This document shows, piece after piece, positions 7,410 to 45,667 of a stretch of DNA of 64,000 nucleotides. The stretch is from NCBI GenBank assembly GCA_003218375.1, contig QHNH01000009.1, forward strand, positions 124,001 to 188,000, written 5' to 3'. A model generated the notes under the pieces. The model made no database searches, had not been told where the DNA came from, and saw only the letters and a list, made by a program, of their open reading frames with translations. The number at the start of each line of letters is the position of its first letter. The stretch's first letter is position 1. Position numbers and translations under genes: made by a program. Source of the stretch: Verrucomicrobiota bacterium. Lineage in GTDB: Bacteria; Verrucomicrobiota; Verrucomicrobiia; Chthoniobacterales; UBA10450.

Positions 7410-9077
7410 TTACTTATCTGACTTCGCTTGCGCCTCCTTGTGTTCCTTCAGGACGGCTGCGAGGCCGTCGGGGTCCATAAAGCCAAAGCGCGTGCAGAAA
7501 TCATCGAAAATATCCTTCGCCGCCCGGTCGCCGCGCGATTCTAGGACACAGATGTGGTCCCAGCAAGTTGTCTCATATTGTTCCTCGGCTACCTCGCGGA
7601 CAGTGGCCTGCAAGGGTGCGCGCGTTGGAACCATTGCGAACACCTTGCCTGTGACATGATCAATATGTCGAAACGGGATAGCAGCCCAATTCTTCGAGCC
7701 CATGGTAATGACTTCCTGAACTGCGCTGTTGTTTCGAAGATAATACGGGTCGGTCGCCCTGAACCATCCGCTATGCCAGAACGTTATCTCGCCAAAGCCG
7801 ATGACGATATCATTTGGCTTAGCCCGGCTTATGACATAGGCGTAGGCGCTTCGCAGATCGACGGGGACCTCCTTCGGATCATGGCGATAAAGCGCCCGCA
7901 GCGGTCGAACCGTTAGAACAAGGACAAGCGCCGTCAGACCAAAGCGCGCCACGGCTCCGGAATTATTCACCAGATCACGCTGCGCCAGGCGATGCACGAC
8001 CCGCACGATGCCCTCGGACACCGCCAAGATCCCAGCCCCGATGAAGGCAAGGTAGGCCGGGGTCACGAACTGAAGGTAACGAGTTGAAGAGATGAGAGCT
8101 TCACCGCTATTACGGAACGCTGCGAGCGAAATCGGCAGCCCTATCCAGAGCAGACACAGGGCGGCTCCGCGGGGATATCGCCACAGGGCATAGATGACGC
8201 CGAGAATTGCCAGGCCGCCAATAATATAGACCGTCGCGTTATCACCCAAACCAATATCGTATGCGAAGATCGTCCGGAGAGTTTTCGGAGTTAGGGGCAA
8301 TGTGCTGCGCCCCCGATACCCAGTGTTACTCACGGCCTTCTGGAATCGAAGATAAAAGCCGACGACCGGCAGCAGTCCGAGGCCTATCACGAGACCGCTG
8401 GCGGCAGCCAGGCCTAACCTCACATAAGATGGTCCTCGCGAGTTCGTGCCGTAGCCGGGGAGGTAACTTGTGATGAGGTTGAACACAATCCAGCCACCGG
8501 CGAAAATCCCCCAGGCCAGGACATTGGTCGCGGCCATGAAATGATTATAAAGCTCAAGCACGACTGCCACGCAAAATAAAGCCCAATGCTTCACCGAATT
8601 CGTTCGCAGAGCGCGATGGAGAGAAAAGGCTGCAATGCAAGCCAGGAGAACAAAAAGCGAATAAGCGCGCATTTCCTGGCTGTATTGGATAAGGCGCGGC
8701 CAGCACGCGGCCAGACAGGCAGCGATCCAGGCTGCGCGTTCTTCAAAAGCTTCGCGAACGAGGAGAAAGATAACTCCGACCGACGCGACGCCAAAGATAA
8801 CCGGCGAAAAACGGAGCTGCCAGGCATCTGCATCGAAGTGCGTAAGGATGTGGAGATGGGTGACGAGCATGGACAAAAACATTTGATCGATGGGAAACGA
8901 ATTGGCGTCTCTGATGCGGTCCAAGGGATGATCGGATGAGCCGTACTGCCAGGCTTCGTCTAACCAGATGCTATACGCGTTAAGCCGGTAGAGCCGAAGG
9001 GACAACGCGAGGCACAGCAGGAGCAACAACAAGTGCCAACGCCGCTGCGGTAGAAAAGTCCGTAAGCGAGCCAGCAT
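7410..9077 (-). CDS. GT39/ArnT-like integral membrane glycosyltransferase
   Basis: 555 residues with about ten transmembrane helices over residues 15-400 and a soluble C-terminal part. The first periplasmic loop carries 'SIWLDEAWQYG' (Asp-Glu pair near residue 40), and 'PRLIQYSQEMRAYSLFVLLA' follows the second helix pair; both are typical of PMT/ArnT/RgtA-type enzymes that use polyprenyl-phosphate sugars in the periplasm. Acceptor and donor are unknown. It is the first gene of the minus-strand trio with the aminotransferase and methyltransferase, so it may transfer the amino-sugar they make. Confidence 0.8.
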   Translation of the reverse strand: MLARLRTFLPQRRWHLLLLLLCLALSLRLYRLNAYSIWLDEAWQYGSSDHPLDRIRDANSFPIDQMFLSMLVTHLHILTHFDADAWQLRFSPVIFGVASVGVIFLLVREAFEERAAWIAACLAACWPRLIQYSQEMRAYSLFVLLACIAAFSLHRALRTNSVKHWALFCVAVVLELYNHFMAATNVLAWGIFAGGWIVFNLITSYLPGYGTNSRGPSYVRLGLAAASGLVIGLGLLPVVGFYLRFQKAVSNTGYRGRSTLPLTPKTLRTIFAYDIGLGDNATVYIIGGLAILGVIYALWRYPRGAALCLLWIGLPISLAAFRNSGEALISSTRYLQFVTPAYLAFIGAGILAVSEGIVRVVHRLAQRDLVNNSGAVARFGLTALVLVLTVRPLRALYRHDPKEVPVDLRSAYAYVISRAKPNDIVIGFGEITFWHSGWFRATDPYYLRNNSAVQEVITMGSKNWAAIPFRHIDHVTGKVFAMVPTRAPLQATVREVAEEQYETTCWDHICVLESRGDRAAKDIFDDFCTRFGFMDPDGLAAVLKEHKEAQAKSDK

Positions 9078-39663: not shown

Positions 39664-42036
39664 CTACTTAATAAGGCCCGTCAGCGCAGCTAGGAAGATC
39701 GGAACAAAAACCCATCCCGCCAGGATATGCACACGAACGTAATGTCGCAGAAAAGTCCGACTTCGTTTCGGCTTCCATAACTTATCCACGTTTAGGTCTA
39801 TAAAAGGCAGAAACAGACCTAAGCTATACCAAAATCGATTGTAAACGCGGGGCGGATCACCCTTTTCATGCTTAACCTGCAACTGCATTGTTTCCTTACT
39901 AAAAAGAAAGCACCCCAACGCGACAAAAAACGCGCAGATGTATCCAGCATTCGAGGGATGACGACCATACCCCACGAGACCATCAAGCAAGAAACTCTCG
40001 ATCCAAAAGAACCCCTTTAGGACTTCGTCGCGTTCTCGCCGCTTGCCCGCAATAAAAATTTCATCACCCGCCTTTCGATCGCCGGCCCGGATTTGAAATT
40101 GTTCAAGGTTGGTATACAAATCAGCGGCGTATAAAGACTGATTCGCGAACGCCAAGAGATTCTTACGCGAGGCCCCGCCATCCTTGGAAATGACTTTTAT
40201 AGAGTCGTAGGTCGTCGCTTCCATATCGAAAAAGCCCTCGCCCTTTTTCGGCCAAGAGCATTCTTCGACCTGAAGCAGATAGAAGTGGCTATATCGTATT
40301 TCAGCATGATGCTCAACGTTAACGGCTTTGAAAACTGCTGGGCCGTTGACTGTGATTCCGTCCGCATGAAGTTCGGCAATTTTGATCTGTCGGAGCACAA
40401 GTGAGCGCTGAAAAACACTTCCGTTGAGGCGGAGTTCGGGAACGGACGGCGAGTCAAGGAGCGTATTGATGACGAGATCGCCAAAATTCGCTCCTACGCA
40501 GGATACCTTGCCCGCGAAAATAACTGACAAAAAGTTTCCCGCGCCGCCACACTTCATGGATAGGCAGACATCACCACTTACACTTTTGAACCTTGCCTCA
40601 TCAGCTAGAAAATTCTGCGCAACTTCTGCCAGGCAGAAAGTCGCCGGCCCCTCGAAGACCGCCCGGCGAAAAAAGGCCGTACCTCCAATTTTCACGGCGT
40701 TGAAGCTTGCCTCCTTCTCGCTATTGAAATGTGCATCATCTGCATTCAGCTGACCTTTGATAGTTGCTCCGATGAATTCGACTGGACCTTCGAAAGTCGC
40801 CTTTTGGAGAGAAAAGGTGTATTCTACCTTCATCCCACTAAAGCTTGCTGCCTTCGCCTTATTCTTAAACCACGTCCCATCGAGTTCGAAGTAGGCCACT
40901 TCCGTAAAACGAAGATCGACTGAACCTTCAAATACGGCCCGCCGGACAAAAGCGCCGGAGTCTACCTTCAGGTTGGTGAAAACGGCAGCCTTTTCCTTGT
41001 TATTAAATTGCGCCTCGTTGGCAACGAATTGAACTTTAATAGCAGCCCGGTTAAAAAATACCGCACCTTCGAACACCGCCTTCTCAAAGCTAGCCGAGCC
41101 GCCCACCTTGAGATCGGCGAAGTAAGCACCTTGCATGGCGCTACAAAATTGCGCGTCATCAACAAGAAGGCAATTTCCGATATCGGCCCGGCTAAACACA
41201 ACCGGACCTTCGAACACTGCTTTTTGTAACGAGGCGGATCCAGCGATCTTCGCGTCGTTAAAGTATGCGCCCGTTCCTTCTTCCAGGAATTGCGCACCAG
41301 CGGCGGAAAAATCGGTGCCGACACTTATCGAACCGAAATTTGCCGGCCCATCGAACATAGCATTTTGAAAAGACGCGGAATGTCGAGTGCTCATAGCGTA
41401 GAAGTTCGCGTCACCTACAAAACGGGCGTTTTGAAAAAAAACCGATTCTTCAACTTTAATAGCGAAGAAATCCGCTGCTTGTTTACCGTCGATAAACTGC
41501 GAATCTTGGGCGAGCAGCTGACCAGCGATCTCGGCTCCTCCGAAGCTAGCCTTGCCGTCGAAAATCACCTTCCGAAAATCGGCCGAGCCTCCGATTTTTA
41601 TAGGAGAAAAGGTTGCGTTGGCCCTGAACCTACTTTCTTCGAATGAAATACCCGCCAGGCAGTTTGCGCCCCCCAAATTAACTTCTTGGATGAATTGGCA
41701 ATGCCGCAAAGTGACCCAAGAGGGAATTTGGGCATTAAGAAGATTAAGTGGCTCATGTATGGTAGCCCCAGTTATTTTCACACCATTACGGTGAGGCTTG
41801 ACGTTGGGTAACGCACCCGTGAGCAAATCCTCTAAAAATTGTGCGCTAAGCCCACGGTCCTTTTCATCGGGGAATTTTGTTTCTAAGTCAGCGACGTCGC
41901 CGTTTGTAATCTGATCGACAATCCATTGCTCCTTTGCAGTTAGTTTGGTCTTCTTCGGCGACGGCTCCGCGGCGATCAATGCGACGGATGAGAGACATGC
42001 CGCGAGAGTGATCGAAAACCAGGTGGGGAACTTCAC
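39664..42036 (-). CDS. Large pentapeptide-like beta-helix protein with C-terminal membrane helices
   Basis: About 790 residues. Signal-like N-terminus 'VKFPTWFSITLAACLSSVALIAAEP', then a conserved start 'LTAKEQWIVDQITNGDVADLETKFPDEKDRGLSAQFLEDLLTG'. Residues ~100-570 are repeats of 20-44 residues built on A(D/E)F/A.F units ('ASFQKAVFEGPVVFSRADIGNCLLVDDAQF' style), forming a right-handed beta-helix. The C-terminus has two to three membrane helices ('SNAGYICAFFVALGCFLF', 'ILAGWVFVPIFLAALTGLI'). Ectodomain or cytoplasmic placement and function are unknown. GTG at 42036 is preferred for the signal; TTG at 42078 is the alternative. Confidence 0.75.
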   Translation of the reverse strand: MKFPTWFSITLAACLSSVALIAAEPSPKKTKLTAKEQWIVDQITNGDVADLETKFPDEKDRGLSAQFLEDLLTGALPNVKPHRNGVKITGATIHEPLNLLNAQIPSWVTLRHCQFIQEVNLGGANCLAGISFEESRFRANATFSPIKIGGSADFRKVIFDGKASFGGAEIAGQLLAQDSQFIDGKQAADFFAIKVEESVFFQNARFVGDANFYAMSTRHSASFQNAMFDGPANFGSISVGTDFSAAGAQFLEEGTGAYFNDAKIAGSASLQKAVFEGPVVFSRADIGNCLLVDDAQFCSAMQGAYFADLKVGGSASFEKAVFEGAVFFNRAAIKVQFVANEAQFNNKEKAAVFTNLKVDSGAFVRRAVFEGSVDLRFTEVAYFELDGTWFKNKAKAASFSGMKVEYTFSLQKATFEGPVEFIGATIKGQLNADDAHFNSEKEASFNAVKIGGTAFFRRAVFEGPATFCLAEVAQNFLADEARFKSVSGDVCLSMKCGGAGNFLSVIFAGKVSCVGANFGDLVINTLLDSPSVPELRLNGSVFQRSLVLRQIKIAELHADGITVNGPAVFKAVNVEHHAEIRYSHFYLLQVEECSWPKKGEGFFDMEATTYDSIKVISKDGGASRKNLLAFANQSLYAADLYTNLEQFQIRAGDRKAGDEIFIAGKRRERDEVLKGFFWIESFLLDGLVGYGRHPSNAGYICAFFVALGCFLFSKETMQLQVKHEKGDPPRVYNRFWYSLGLFLPFIDLNVDKLWKPKRSRTFLRHYVRVHILAGWVFVPIFLAALTGLIK

Positions 42037-42173
42037 GCTTTCAACGGTCTTAACAGGCCGTCCGTTTAAGTGCAGCAAAAAAAAGCGCGGGCCCGATGCC
42101 GAACCCCGCCCGCATGAAATCGACGGCCAGAGGCGCCGCTACAGACACTAAGCGGCAGGCCTAACCGCGCACC

Positions 42174-42407
42174 TCACGCCTCGTCGGTGAAAGACCGATT
42201 GGCGTAGAAGGCGGCGGCGGTGCGGTTCTCGACACCGAGCTTCTCGAGAATCCGGTGGACATGTTTCTTCACGGTGGCCGTTTTCATTCCAAGGATTATT
42301 CCTATCTCTTCGTTCGTCTTCGCTTCCCGGAGCCAGGGCAACACCAGCAATTCGCGCCCGTTGAGTAATCCTTCCTCGATGATGTGCTCTTCCAGAATCA
42401 CGCACAT
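42174..42407 (-). CDS. LuxR-type HTH domain, N-terminally truncated regulator
   Basis: 77 residues. 'LLNGRELLVLPWLREAKTNEEIGIILGMKTATVKKHVHRILEKLGVENRTAAAFYANR' is a nearly complete GerE/LuxR DNA-binding domain of the form common in Verrucomicrobia-like regulators (normally 'LT.RE.EVL.W...GK.N.EI..IL'). Upstream of residue 1 the frame enters DNA belonging to an Fn3-type gene on the other strand, so the sensory N-terminal domain has been lost at a rearrangement junction near 42.4 kb. It may survive as an orphan DNA-binding peptide or be a pseudogene. Confidence 0.65.
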   Translation of the reverse strand: MCVILEEHIIEEGLLNGRELLVLPWLREAKTNEEIGIILGMKTATVKKHVHRILEKLGVENRTAAAFYANRSFTDEA

Positions 42408-42410
42408 CGC

Positions 42411-42906
42411 GCGCTTGCGGTTGCAATCGATCTGGAAACCGCCTTGGGCAACCTCGGCAACTACGTTAACATCATCGCCGACGGCGACCCTGCCATTCTC
42501 GTTCAGAGCGGTTTTCTTTCCTACGGAACCGATCACACGCCCGACACCACGCCGCCGGGCGCGCCCCAAAATCTCGTGGTGCGCCAGGGCGACCTGAGCG
42601 GCACCCTGGTCGCGCGCTACCAGCCCGATCGTCAACACAGCATCAACGACGTCCAGACGAACACCGGCGACCCGAACACGGAAAGCGATTGGAAACCGGC
42701 CGGCATGTTCAGCGGCGGCAAAGCGACGCTGAGCGGATCGATTCGGCCGCTCCCGCCGCCTCACTCTTCCGGCCAGGTCTATGTCGCACCGCTTCCCGCG
42801 GGCTCCATTCACGCCCGGCACAGTCATCTGGGTGCGGGTGCGCACCGTCGGTCTCAAAGGCGTCAGGGGCGCCTGGAGCGCCCCCGCCCAGATTCGAGCC
42901 GGCTGA
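42411..42906 (+). pseudogene. Fibronectin-III-like surface protein, 5' truncated and frameshifted
   Basis: 'AIDLETALGNLGNYVNIIADGDPAILVQSGF' and 'TTPPGAPQNLVVRQGDLSGTLVARYQPDR' open the piece in one frame through 'DWKPAGMFSGGKATLSG'; an insertion of about 65 bases shifts the frame, and the end continues as 'APFTPGTVIWVRVRTVGLKGVRGAWSAPAQIRAG' to TGA. The pattern is that of a short Fn3-like protein whose first exon-equivalent is missing. The 3' end and downstream terminator recur four more times within 2 kb. It is not expected to give a full protein. Confidence 0.75.
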
Positions 42907-42990
42907 TTCCTCAGCCTAACGAGCGGAGACCGGGCCCGAACCAAATTTTCCACAATCGTTTTCTCAGTCCTCGCCACGGGCGCTGTACGT
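42821..42990 (+). repeat. Fn3-gene 3' end + terminator unit, copy 1
   Basis: Unit reads GTCATCTGGGTGCGGGTGCG ... GGTCTCAAAGGCGTCAGGGG ... GCCTGGAGCG ... CGGCTGA, then CCTAACGAGCGGAGACCGGG and a T-rich tail. It is the reference for four more degenerate copies at 43161, 43850, 44096 and 44546. Confidence 0.8.
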
Positions 42991-43134
42991 GATTCACGTC
43001 TACGCGAACACGCGCGCTGCCGAACTATCGTAAGCAGCTTACGATGTATCCAGGCACGGGCATTGATGACTCCCGGGGGTGACTCGTAGACCGATGCTAT
43101 GCGTGACTCACGTATAGCACCATGACGCGCGATG
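42982..43134. repeat. 153-bp block with two operator-like palindromes, copy 1
   Basis: Begins and ends with a 23-base palindrome of core TATACGTGAnTCACGTATA type (42982-43004 and 43096-43118). Between them are 'GAACACGCGCGCTGCCGAAC', 'TTACGATGTATCCAGGCACG' and 'GCATTGATGACTCC'. The same block recurs at 43431-43587 at about 90% identity. Confidence 0.8.
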
Positions 43135-43160
43135 TAGATTGCAGGGGTTTCAATCATGCC

Positions 43161-43320
43161 CGGCATAGCCATCTGGATGCGGGTGCGTACCGTCGGTCTC
43201 AAAGGCGTCAGGGGCGCCTGGAGCGACCCCGCCCAGATTCGAGCCGGCTGATTCCTCAGCCTAACGAGTGGAGACCGGGCGCGAACCAAATTTTCCACAA
43301 TCGTTTTCTCGATCCCCGCC
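43161..43320 (+). repeat. Fn3-gene 3' end + terminator unit, copy 2
   Basis: Closest to copy 1: same GGTCTCAAAGGCGTCAGGGG, GCCCAGATTCGAGCCGGCTG and CAAATTTTCCACAATCGTTT segments, differing at scattered positions. The coding frame is intact only for the last ~25 residues of the Fn3 protein. Confidence 0.8.
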
Positions 43321-43326
43321 TCGGGC

Positions 43327-43349
43327 GCTATGCCTGATTCACATATAGC
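43327..43349. promoter_or_regulatory. Operator-like palindrome, degenerate copy
   Basis: Same 23-base pattern as the palindromes at 42982, 43096, 43431, 43547 and 43672, with two changes in the left arm (GCTATGCCTGA). Followed by ACCATGACGCACGAGG, which also follows two of the others. Confidence 0.55.
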
Positions 43350-43430
43350 ACCATGACGCACGAGGTGGCTTACGGGACCTTCGATTCACGCCGGACGGGA
43401 CCATCTGGGCTAAGCGCGCCGTGGATTTGG

Positions 43431-43587
43431 GCTATACGTGTGAATCACGTCTACGCGAACACGCGTGCTGCCGAACTATCGTAGGCGGCTTACGATGCAT
43501 CCAGGCACGGGCATTGATGACTCCGGGGGATGACTCGTAGACCGGTACTATACGTGACTCACGTACAGCACCATGACGCGCGAGATG
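43431..43587. repeat. ~155-bp block with two operator-like palindromes, copy 2
   Basis: Second copy of the block at 42982-43134, with palindromes at 43431-43455 (two-base insertion in the centre) and 43547-43569, and the shared GCTGCCGAACTATCGTA and CCAGGCACGGGCATTGATGA segments. Confidence 0.8.
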
Positions 43588-43671
43588 GTTTACAAGGCCT
43601 TCGCTTCACGCGCATCGTCGAGACATCCGCCCAAGAGTGCGACCTGGGTAGCCACTGGCGTTGCCTTGGGT

Positions 43672-43694
43672 GCTATACGTGATTCACGTATAGC
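43672..43694. promoter_or_regulatory. Perfect 23-base palindrome, best copy of the family
   Basis: Eleven-base arms around one central base; core TATACGTGATTCACGTATA. The odd-length dyad with 11-bp arms is typical of binding sites for homodimeric HTH regulators. No promoter or gene start is evident beside it. Confidence 0.6.
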
Positions 43695-43849
43695 GCCATC
43701 CGAAGTCGCAATATATGATCTGGGGCCGGGTCCGGAAGATTGGCACCGGCGGCAAAGCGAGGCGGAGCGGCTTGATTCGACTGCTCCCACGGCATCACCC
43801 TTCGGGGCAGGACTATGTCGCACCGCTCCCTCGGGCTCCATTCACGCTC

Positions 43850-44030
43850 GGCACAGTCATCGGGTGCGGGCGGACACCGTCGGCCTCAAAGGCGTCATGG
43901 GCGCCTGGAGCGACCCGGCCAAACTAATGGTGGTGTAACGCGACCACCGCTCCTCCGCTCCTCCTGACGACCGAAGAACGGGCGAAAATATTTCTGCCGC
44001 CGCTTTTTTTCTCTTCTGGCACTCGGGGTA
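43850..44030 (+). repeat. Fn3-gene 3' end + terminator unit, copy 3
   Basis: Shares GGCCTCAAAGGCGTCATGGG, GCCTGGAGCGACCCGGCC and the ending ATGGTGGTGTAA (Met-Val-Val-stop). Just upstream (43748-43850) it also contains the inserted segment seen in copy 1 (GACTATGTCGCACCGCTCCC region), so copies 1 and 3 share the same insertion. Confidence 0.7.
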
Positions 44031-44063
44031 TCGCCCATCTGGAAAAGCGGCGCCCTTAAACTT

Positions 44064-44080
44064 GACCGCTTTAAGCGGTC
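44064..44080. repeat. GACCGCTTTAAGCGGTC palindrome, copy 1 of 3
   Basis: Perfect 17-base odd dyad. Identical copies at 44266-44282 and 44499-44515. In copies 1 and 3 it is followed by GTTCCAnCC.CAC.CTCAA and TAACGGACG, then an Fn3 3' end, so it forms the upstream boundary of the repeat unit. Confidence 0.85.
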
Positions 44081-44095
44081 GGGTTCCAGCCCCAC

Positions 44096-44222
44096 ACTCA
44101 AGAGTAACGGACGAACGCGGGCGGCTGGAGGGACCTCGCCCAGATCCGAGTCGGCTGATCCCTTGATCTAACGAGCGAAAGAACGGGCGGAAATATTTTC
44201 TACGGCGCTTTTTCTCTTCTGG
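44096..44222 (+). repeat. Fn3-gene 3' end + terminator unit, copy 4 (most decayed)
   Basis: Only the last part is recognisable: GGCTGGAGGGACCTCGCCCA, GATCCGAGTCGGCTGA, then TCTAACGAGCGAAAGAACGG and a decayed hairpin with CTTTTTCTCTTCTGGC. Confidence 0.6.
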
Positions 44223-44265
44223 CAATCGAGCGGCCCGTCCATTTCAAAGGCGGTCTGCTAAACTC

Positions 44266-44282
44266 GACCGCTTTAAGCGGTC
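44266..44282. repeat. GACCGCTTTAAGCGGTC palindrome, copy 2 of 3
   Basis: Identical to the copy at 44064. Here the sequence after it does not lead into an Fn3 end but into a TGTAGC-like segment (44321-44371) and unassigned DNA up to 44490. Confidence 0.85.
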
Positions 44283-44498
44283 GAGTTTCCTTGGGTCGAG
44301 TTCCGGACCATCTTGAGATTTGTAGCCTCGGCGCCTGCTCGCGAATGGAGCGAGCCGGGAGGCTGCGACATAGATCACAAAACCTGAGGGGCGAAGGCGA
44401 GAGAGTGGGAAGCGAACGAGTCAAAGCTTTCGGAGCTGTGCCGCCGTACCTGGGTAGACGCCTCGCCAACGCACCGGCGGCGAACGCCCGGCCGACTT

Positions 44499-44515
44499 GA
44501 CCGCTTTAAGCGGTC
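44499..44515. repeat. GACCGCTTTAAGCGGTC palindrome, copy 3 of 3
   Basis: Identical to the other two, again followed by GAGTTCCAACCGCACGCTCA and an Fn3 3' end unit. Confidence 0.85.
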
Positions 44516-44545
44516 GAGTTCCAACCGCACGCTCAAAAATAACGG

Positions 44546-44730
44546 ACGCCCGGCACCGTCATCTGAGTGCGGGTGCGCACCGTTGGTCTCAAAGGCGTCA
44601 TGGGCGCTTGGAGCGACCCGGCGAAAATCATGGTGGTGTAACTGGACCGCCGCGCAGATCCACGGTGTCTGAAACTGCATCCTAACGAGCGAAGAGCGGG
44701 CGGGAATAATTTTCCCGCCCGTTTCTTTTC
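44546..44730 (+). repeat. Fn3-gene 3' end + terminator unit, copy 5 (best terminator)
   Basis: CACCGTCATCTGAGTGCGGG, GGTCTCAAAGGCGTCATGGG, GAGCGACCCGGCGAAAATCA and TGGTGGTGTAA give the last ~25 codons of the Fn3 protein; an in-frame TGA replaces the Trp codon of 'VIWVRV'. It ends in the intact intrinsic terminator. Confidence 0.75.
44697..44729 (+). terminator. Rho-independent terminator
   Basis: Perfect ten-base stem CGGGCGGGAA/TTCCCGCCCG with a five-base loop, then TTTCTTTT. Decayed versions of this hairpin follow the other Fn3 3'-end copies. Confidence 0.8.
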
Positions 44731-44753
44731 CGGCGATCACCCGCACGACAGAC

Positions 44754-45140
44754 ATGAATCGTCTCGCGTTTGGAATGAGTCAGCGGCCACAGTGTATCCA
44801 ATTGAGCGCGGAAAAACTTTGTATCTGGCGTCCGCTAAGGCGGCGTCACAATCAACTCTTGCAGCTTCTGGGGTACGGGTACACCGACCGCGAGGCTGCG
44901 CAGCACATGCGAATCGGCCTCGGCACTGTGCGAACTTATTTGGCACAGATGAGAGTCTCCCTTCATGTATCTACTCTCTCTGGGGTGCGCCGTCTGGCGC
45001 GAGACTGGATCGCCGGGAAAACGAATCGGCGGGCAAAAGACACAGATAAACTCAGGCCGCGGCACTGCTCGTTTGGCTTTCGCCCATCATTAAGCGCTCT
45101 CCTGTCACGGCCTGCGACTAACAGGTGGGGAGACACATGA
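44754..45140 (+). CDS. LuxR/GerE-type HTH protein
   Basis: 128 residues. 'RRRHNQLLQLLGYGYTDREAAQHMRIGLGTVRTYLAQMRVSLHVSTLSGVRRLARDW' (about 28-90) fits the four-helix GerE fold, including the recognition helix 'GLGTVRTYLAQMR'. No receiver or ligand-binding domain precedes it, and the ~40-residue C-terminal tail is basic and unstructured. It begins 25 bases after the strong terminator, so it is the start of a new unit, and it overlaps the sigma-like gene by four bases. Probably a small DNA-binding regulator; target unknown. Confidence 0.6.
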   Translation: MNRLAFGMSQRPQCIQLSAEKLCIWRPLRRRHNQLLQLLGYGYTDREAAQHMRIGLGTVRTYLAQMRVSLHVSTLSGVRRLARDWIAGKTNRRAKDTDKLRPRHCSFGFRPSLSALLSRPATNRWGDT

Positions 45141-45667
45141 ATCCTGAAAAAAACGGTGAAAACACCGACTCCGAAACGCAGATATCGATGGACGATCAAG
45201 ATGCGCAGCTTGGTGCCGCAAAGCAGGCAGCAGCTAGTGGTCAGCCGATTCAGATGCTTGAGTGCCTGCACAAAAGCCGCGCACTTGATGGCCTTGTTCG
45301 ACGCTTGCAATCGAAATGGCAAGTCTTGGCCTCTTCGGACATCGACATGGCTGTCGCAAAGGCGGTCGACGCCGCATACAGTTGTCTAAGGTCCGGCAAA
45401 ACCGTGACCCGCTTCGCGGGCTTCTTATGGAAAGTCGCAGATCGACGAGCATTCGACTGCGCGCGTCTATTGCATGGGCAAATGCCGACAGACCCGACCG
45501 TCCTCGAAAACATCGCCGACCCGAGCAGCGTCCTTCCAGGTCACGATCCGGACGACGCGGAGGATGAGCGTAATGCTATGATTCGGCGCGCCGCACAGAT
45601 CGCGCGCAAGTTAGTGCCCAAAGTCCACTTTCGACTTTATTCCTCCTTTTGCTCAGTGAAGGCGTAG
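45137..45667 (+). CDS. Sigma-factor region-2-like protein, C-terminus probably replaced
   Basis: 176 residues from the ATG with GGGGAG five bases upstream. 'ALDGLVRRLQSKWQVLASSDIDMAVAKAVDAAYSCLRSGKTVTRFAGFLWKVADRRAFDCAR' resembles ECF sigma region 2 (helices 2.1-2.4) weakly. Region 4 is absent: after 'IRRAAQIARKLVPKVHFRLYSSF' the frame enters an ORF6N-gene remnant read antisense. That suggests a truncated regulator whose original 3' half was lost at a junction near 45.64 kb. Coupled to the HTH gene upstream. Assignment is tentative; a nucleic-acid-related regulator is the broadest safe statement. Confidence 0.45.
   Translation: MNPEKNGENTDSETQISMDDQDAQLGAAKQAAASGQPIQMLECLHKSRALDGLVRRLQSKWQVLASSDIDMAVAKAVDAAYSCLRSGKTVTRFAGFLWKVADRRAFDCARLLHGQMPTDPTVLENIADPSSVLPGHDPDDAEDERNAMIRRAAQIARKLVPKVHFRLYSSFCSVKA

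Follow-up and report, generated by a model that had tools for sequence, protein, structure and literature searches.

A probable dead gene pair with a decaying, duplicated 3′ end in a palindrome-rich stretch of a verrucomicrobial genome

Three described systems serve as points of comparison for the locus reported here. The first is the autoregulated XRE-type repressor with a palindromic operator, in which the regulator has an MqsA/HigA-like HTH. The second is formed by the Rickettsia palindromic elements, which are about 100–150 bp long. The third is the REP cluster: the parts of the published account drawn on here describe tandem reiteration of such clusters along with segments of flanking DNA, and present O. 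terrae as a verrucomicrobial genome rich in REP-type repeats (PMC3733652). The array analysed below resembles clusters reiterated in this way (PMC3733652), yet its palindromes, termed A, B and C, fail two REP features.

The array lies in a window (the whole stretch of DNA analysed, 64,000 nucleotides) from a genome of 3.96 Mb in 52 contigs (G000; C numbers denote contigs), which we compared, among others, with the congeners G003 and G007, the latter a MAG of an uncultured Spartobacteria bacterium. We consider it likely that the locus is a dead gene pair, one member of which had its 3′ end amplified stepwise and is now decaying in a palindrome-rich stretch. It is thus a mostly ordinary locus, with the operator family of palindrome A as an unexpected by-product. 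The literature searched yielded no published account of such growth of an array from a dead gene end or of the link between palindrome A and a regulator.

Structure of the array

Self-alignment of positions 42401–44760 of the window (E ≤ 1e-3) recovered 19 repeat blocks, the longest of 198 bp, as against none in 100 first-order Markov shuffles of the same interval; the unit structure expected by an earlier, sequence-only reading is thus evident. The features are as follows:

42174–42432, minus strand: 3′ remnant of a LuxR/GerE-type regulator gene (GerE, E = 5.6e-13), homologous to the LuxR-type genes at the intact relative and in G003
~42428: fusion junction of the LuxR-type remnant and the Fn3-like body, with CGAT microhomology
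42428–42736, plus strand: 5′-truncated Fn3-like gene body, matching G000:C42:222290–222598 at 95% over 309 nt, with no stop in the 100 codons read
42737–42804, plus strand: E insert, a dispersed repeat, present also in the G007:C24 copy
42805–42960, plus strand: tail T1, short form, without terminator
42983–43003: palindrome A, decayed (3 mismatches)
43028–43044: palindrome C
43097–43117: palindrome A, one arm change
43149–43325, plus strand: tail T2, sister of T1
43328–43348: palindrome A, decayed (3 mismatches)
43479–43495: palindrome C
43548–43568: palindrome A, one arm change
43673–43693: palindrome A, perfect
43744–43836, plus strand: second E insert with flanking gene sequence (86%, to 42710–42888)
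43838–44013, plus strand: tail T3, long form (..DPAKLMVV-stop), with a decayed terminator
44060–44084: palindrome B
44110–44217, plus strand: tail T4, last codons only, short form
44262–44286: palindrome B, perfect
44322–44437, plus strand: D, a dispersed repeat that starts with GTAG and has 87% copies in G003
44495–44519: palindrome B
44546–44733, plus strand: tail T5, with the sole intact terminator hairpin

The five copies of the gene tail differ markedly in their state of preservation. T1, which comes after the 309-nt gene body and the E insert, and T2 both lack the terminator hairpin as well as the final coding stretch (..AKLMVV-stop). T3 has the final coding segment and the terminator, both decayed, with CTAACGAGCG degraded to CTGACGACCG; T4 retains only about 12 final codons, and the tail is complete in T5. 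The terminator folding energy is −28.9 kcal/mol for T5 versus −10.1 to −12.9 kcal/mol for T1–T4, in agreement with the earlier observation that the last terminator alone is intact. The same reading had given each of five copies a full unit: the five copies are there, but the unit is incomplete in T1, T2 and T4 and decayed in T3. A scan of 41900–45200 against Rfam returned nothing above threshold, and no sigma-70-like promoter was found in 42100–45200.

The repeat blocks themselves are of graded similarity. The A-C-A segments (42989–43132 and 43440–43583) are 92% identical over 144 bp, with a period of 451 bp, and the T1/T2 blocks (42800–42997 and 43145–43342) are 91% identical over 198 bp, with a period of 345 bp. 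The E-bearing blocks (42710–42888 and 43744–43920) follow at 86%, the tail-spacer-B units at 77% over 124 bp with a period of about 203 bp, and T3 matches T4 and T5 at 77% and 75%, respectively. This gradation (92, 91, 86, 77 and 75%) fits duplications differing in age; for the T1/T2 and A-C-A pairs, which keep a fixed order, local duplication is plain. The three periodic sets of repeats support stepwise tandem amplification in place, as first proposed from the sequence, and the E-bearing blocks correspond to the insert then recognized as common to copies 1 and 3. Several block ends coincide with palindromes, in that block 42800–42997 stops in A, block 42989–43132 begins in A and block 43964–44085 stops at B, each in both copies; this coincidence is partly a consequence of the palindromes being repeated themselves.

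A fragmented assembly of 52 contigs, compared with a congener that is itself a MAG, might raise the suspicion of an assembly artefact. This is scarcely credible here: the copies differ by 8–25%, which is excessive for stuttered or collapsed reads, and like mosaics occur at G007:C12 and G000:C8.

The intact relative and the loss of the gene starts

The full-length gene that had been postulated elsewhere in the genome was found on contig C42, as an open frame of 209 codons whose body matches the window at 95% over 309 nt and whose tail does so at 85% over 168 nt. Its body runs into its tail without an array: the gap between the two is four bases at C42 versus 1.8 kb in the window. A Pfam search with the 209-codon protein returned no family; a paralog on C2 has a fibronectin type III match (E = 4.9e-4) under the curated cut-off, which makes ‘Fn3-like’ a fitting label. 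The terminator of the intact gene (8030–8120 of locus L020, G000:C42:214000–230000) carries about 80 nt extra in its loop relative to its relatives. Pentapeptide-repeat genes adjoin both the window copy (39664–42078) and the intact copy (6113–7930 of L020), though in a differing arrangement.

At C42 a LuxR/GerE-type gene adjoins the Fn3-like gene in the opposite direction, as it does at G003:C4. The window carries the same two genes, both truncated and fused at about 42428: LuxR-type homology extends to 42432, Fn3-like homology begins at 42428, and CGAT is common to both sides. The approximately 1.1 kb between the two genes at C42 is absent from the window, so that the intergenic region, the expected promoter site of both genes, is gone. 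The sequence-only reading had recognized the repeated 3′ end but had missed the 5′ truncation of the gene, the fused LuxR-type gene and the palindromes. We also considered retro-copying, by which 5′-truncated copies ending at the terminator would arise, and dropped it, as C42, G003:C4 and the window all retain the LuxR-type neighbour.

Tail types, congener copies and the order of events

The tails come in two forms. The short form (..PAQIR-G or close) is seen in T1, T2 and T4, as in G003, and the long form in T3, T5, C42 and G007:C24. In a tree of 11 tails, T1 and T2 form the sole well-supported group (100); T4 falls with the G003 tail type, unsupported. Further, 43715–43757 is similar to the tail type of G003 and G007:C12. 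The presence of both forms in one array is not explained by amplification of one tail and points to mixing between family members: not every copy would then stem from one tail, and two tail types appear to have been mixed. The earlier description of the array as one gene's 3′ end was in this respect too simple.

The two tail types, and the resemblance of 43715–43757 to the G003/G007:C12 type, would also fit an array left over from a tandem cluster in which several paralogous Fn3-like genes had been deleted down to their tails. We regard such a cluster as unlikely as the source of the array, given that the similarity and fixed order of the T1/T2 (91%) and A-C-A (92%) segments mark them as local duplications, that a single body is present, and that no tandem intact genes were seen around C42 or G003:C4.

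The congener G007 offers two further points of comparison. At G007:C24 there is a single tail with the E insert, as in the window, and no array at that place; its flanks are unlike those of the window, making it a relative whose orthology is not proven. At G007:C12, tail fragments lie among palindromes B and C, and a composite of palindrome B, spacer and tail recurs at this non-syntenic place with 85–87% identity over 78 bp. To judge from this shared composite, part of the array may predate the divergence of the species or may have been relocated. This second tail/B/C array has as direct neighbours a gene for type IIG restriction-methylation and one of the AAA type (3052–10833 of L097, G007:C12:145000–164000).

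These copies also bear on exchange between family members. Three copies share 233 nt of body, over which the window has 12 differences from C42 and 22 from G007:C24, whereas the first 57 nt of T1 are identical to G007:C24 and show 5 differences from C42 (counted by eye on the alignment). The uneven split of differences between body and T1 tail (Fisher p = 0.005, n = 25 differences) is a weak hint that one old exchange between copies may have taken place. The sequence-only reading had offered two suggestions on the origin or role of the array. The analyses made lent no support to the first, a relic of repeated homologous integration, on which they bear only indirectly. The second, put forward as speculative, was that the array might be a reservoir from which an intact copy elsewhere could draw donor sequence by gene conversion. 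An intact target does exist at C42, and the body lies closer to it while the start of T1 lies closer to G007:C24; yet the tails are only 84–92% identical to C42, the copies carry deletions and frame-breaking inserts, and G007, which has an array too, yielded no intact gene. No near-identical tracts common to the array and the intact copy were found, exact matches reaching at most 67 nt for the body and 38 nt for the tails, and we hold a donor store to be highly improbable.

We thus return to a dead gene pair with a growing and decaying 3′ end. The intact relative and the single copy in the congener allow the steps of its growth and decay beside palindromes to be ordered. The starting point would have been a divergent pair, present twice in G000, of a LuxR-type regulator gene and an Fn3-like gene that belongs to a small set of paralogs. 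A deletion of about 1.1 kb, for which the short CGAT matches are the likely end points, would have removed both gene starts and the intergenic region; the loss itself is apparent against the intact pair. The Fn3-like remnant would then have gained the E insert in its 3′ part, and its unconstrained 3′ end would have grown via several tandem duplications of unequal lengths, carrying along the dispersed palindromes A, B and C, presumably with admixture of the other tail type known from this gene family. The palindromes, as slippage or recombination points, probably promoted the duplications. No function could be demonstrated for the array itself. Tandem repeats around A are also found elsewhere in the genome, at G000:C8 (167 bp) and C19:195k (168 bp).

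The palindromes and an XRE-type regulator

All three palindromes have a one-base centre and are perfect or nearly so: A is CTATACGTGANTCACGTATAG, B is ACTCGACCGCTTNAAGCGGTCGAGT and C is ATCGTAAGCNGCTTACGAT. At up to 3 mismatches, G000 has 18 places with A and nine with B, and the array holds five and three of these, respectively; a reversed control gave no match. Within the family, 21 of 37 genomes have A (≤1 mismatch), as against none of 21 from other families in the order. B occurs in frame inside two genes. One, an 8-oxoguanine glycosylase-like gene, has it just upstream of the portion aligning to solved relatives; the other encodes a glycerate kinase and has it in a loop that exceeds its counterpart in solved relatives in length. 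These placements suggest that B entered both frames by insertion. The prmC gene contains, in frame, a copy of A that has one change (5435–5455 of L094, G000:C10:69000–80000); the candidacy of this copy as an insertion was rejected, the alignment to PDB structures giving a net insertion of almost nil (one residue).

In function, the genes near A are a mixed set. Three of the inspected loci carry defence-type genes (hand-picked proteins): Hachiman, type IIG restriction-methylation and TIR/SAVED-TIR. In one, palindromes C, C, A and C directly precede the Hachiman pair HamA and HamB (3904–9446 of L099, G002:C34:12000–22000); in another, one A site separates a TIR-domain gene from a SAVED-TIR-like gene (3336–6882 of L093, G000:C28:70000–81000).

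Eight of 20 A-bearing stretches, drawn from 8 genomes, carry next to A a small gene (about 73 codons) encoding an HTH_3 protein (E = 1.2e-8); the other 12 have no such gene nearby. The 20 comprise all G000 places of A outside the window and part of those in ten other genomes. A profile built from five of the proteins gave 21 matches in 58 genomes, and the core ATACGTGANTCACGTAT (≤2 mismatches) lies within 250 nt upstream in 17 of them and within 120 nt downstream in 12. A was the criterion by which eight of the 21 loci had been chosen, and the upstream site is present in nine of the 13 others; the genes without it are those of G003:C20, G053, G050 and G027. Among the 37 family genomes, 15 have both gene and palindrome, one the HTH gene only, six A only and 15 neither (Fisher p = 1.3e-4, a test that ignores kinship). 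Thus, palindrome A is probably the operator of a solitary XRE-type regulator, as far as its placement and co-occurrence indicate. Conserved across a bacterial family and linked with a small family of regulators, this 21-bp palindrome turns from an anonymous repeat into a testable operator. None of ten hand-picked neighbours of C matches an HTH family.

The array might, on these grounds, be a decoy or control cluster for the regulator binding A: 5 of the 18 genomic A sites fall within it, and A lies upstream of 17 of the 21 HTH genes. Yet only one of the five sites is perfect and two have 3 changes, no HTH gene of the palindrome A type was found in the window, and the promoter search was likewise negative, making a decoy very unlikely. 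A broader proposal, which we consider doubtful, is that A is an operator that often brackets its gene, and that the operator-gene-operator unit, or the operator alone, would have dispersed across one verrucomicrobial family as an element able to spread itself and seeding local tandem duplications; the window array would be a scar of this, and B and C may be sister operators. An integron-like cassette array, with A sites separating short gene segments at G000:C8 and elsewhere, was dropped, A being symmetrical and an operator role fitting better.

Set against known systems, B recalls the Rickettsia palindromic elements in lying in frame inside the glycosylase-like and glycerate kinase genes, and differs from them in its length of 25–27 bp and in that its insertion is here a deduction from position. 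With REP/BIME-type clusters (GTAG and CGTC families), as portrayed in the parts of the literature used here, the palindromes share their shortness, mostly intergenic placement and tandem clusters reiterated with flanking DNA. However, A, B and C fail two defining REP features, the tag and the RAYT association: they have a 1-nt centre and are without the GTAG tag, no GTAG/CGTC tag is common among the flanks of A and B, and no A, B, C, D or E lies within 1.5 kb on either side of any of the genome's 12 Y1_Tnp matches, so that RAYT-driven REPs are not supported. As for the autoregulated XRE-type repressors (MqsA/HigA-like), A departs from them in often lying just downstream as well (12 of 21) and in having many sites without a gene nearby, but is like them in the pairing of a small HTH_3 protein with a palindrome that closely precedes its start.
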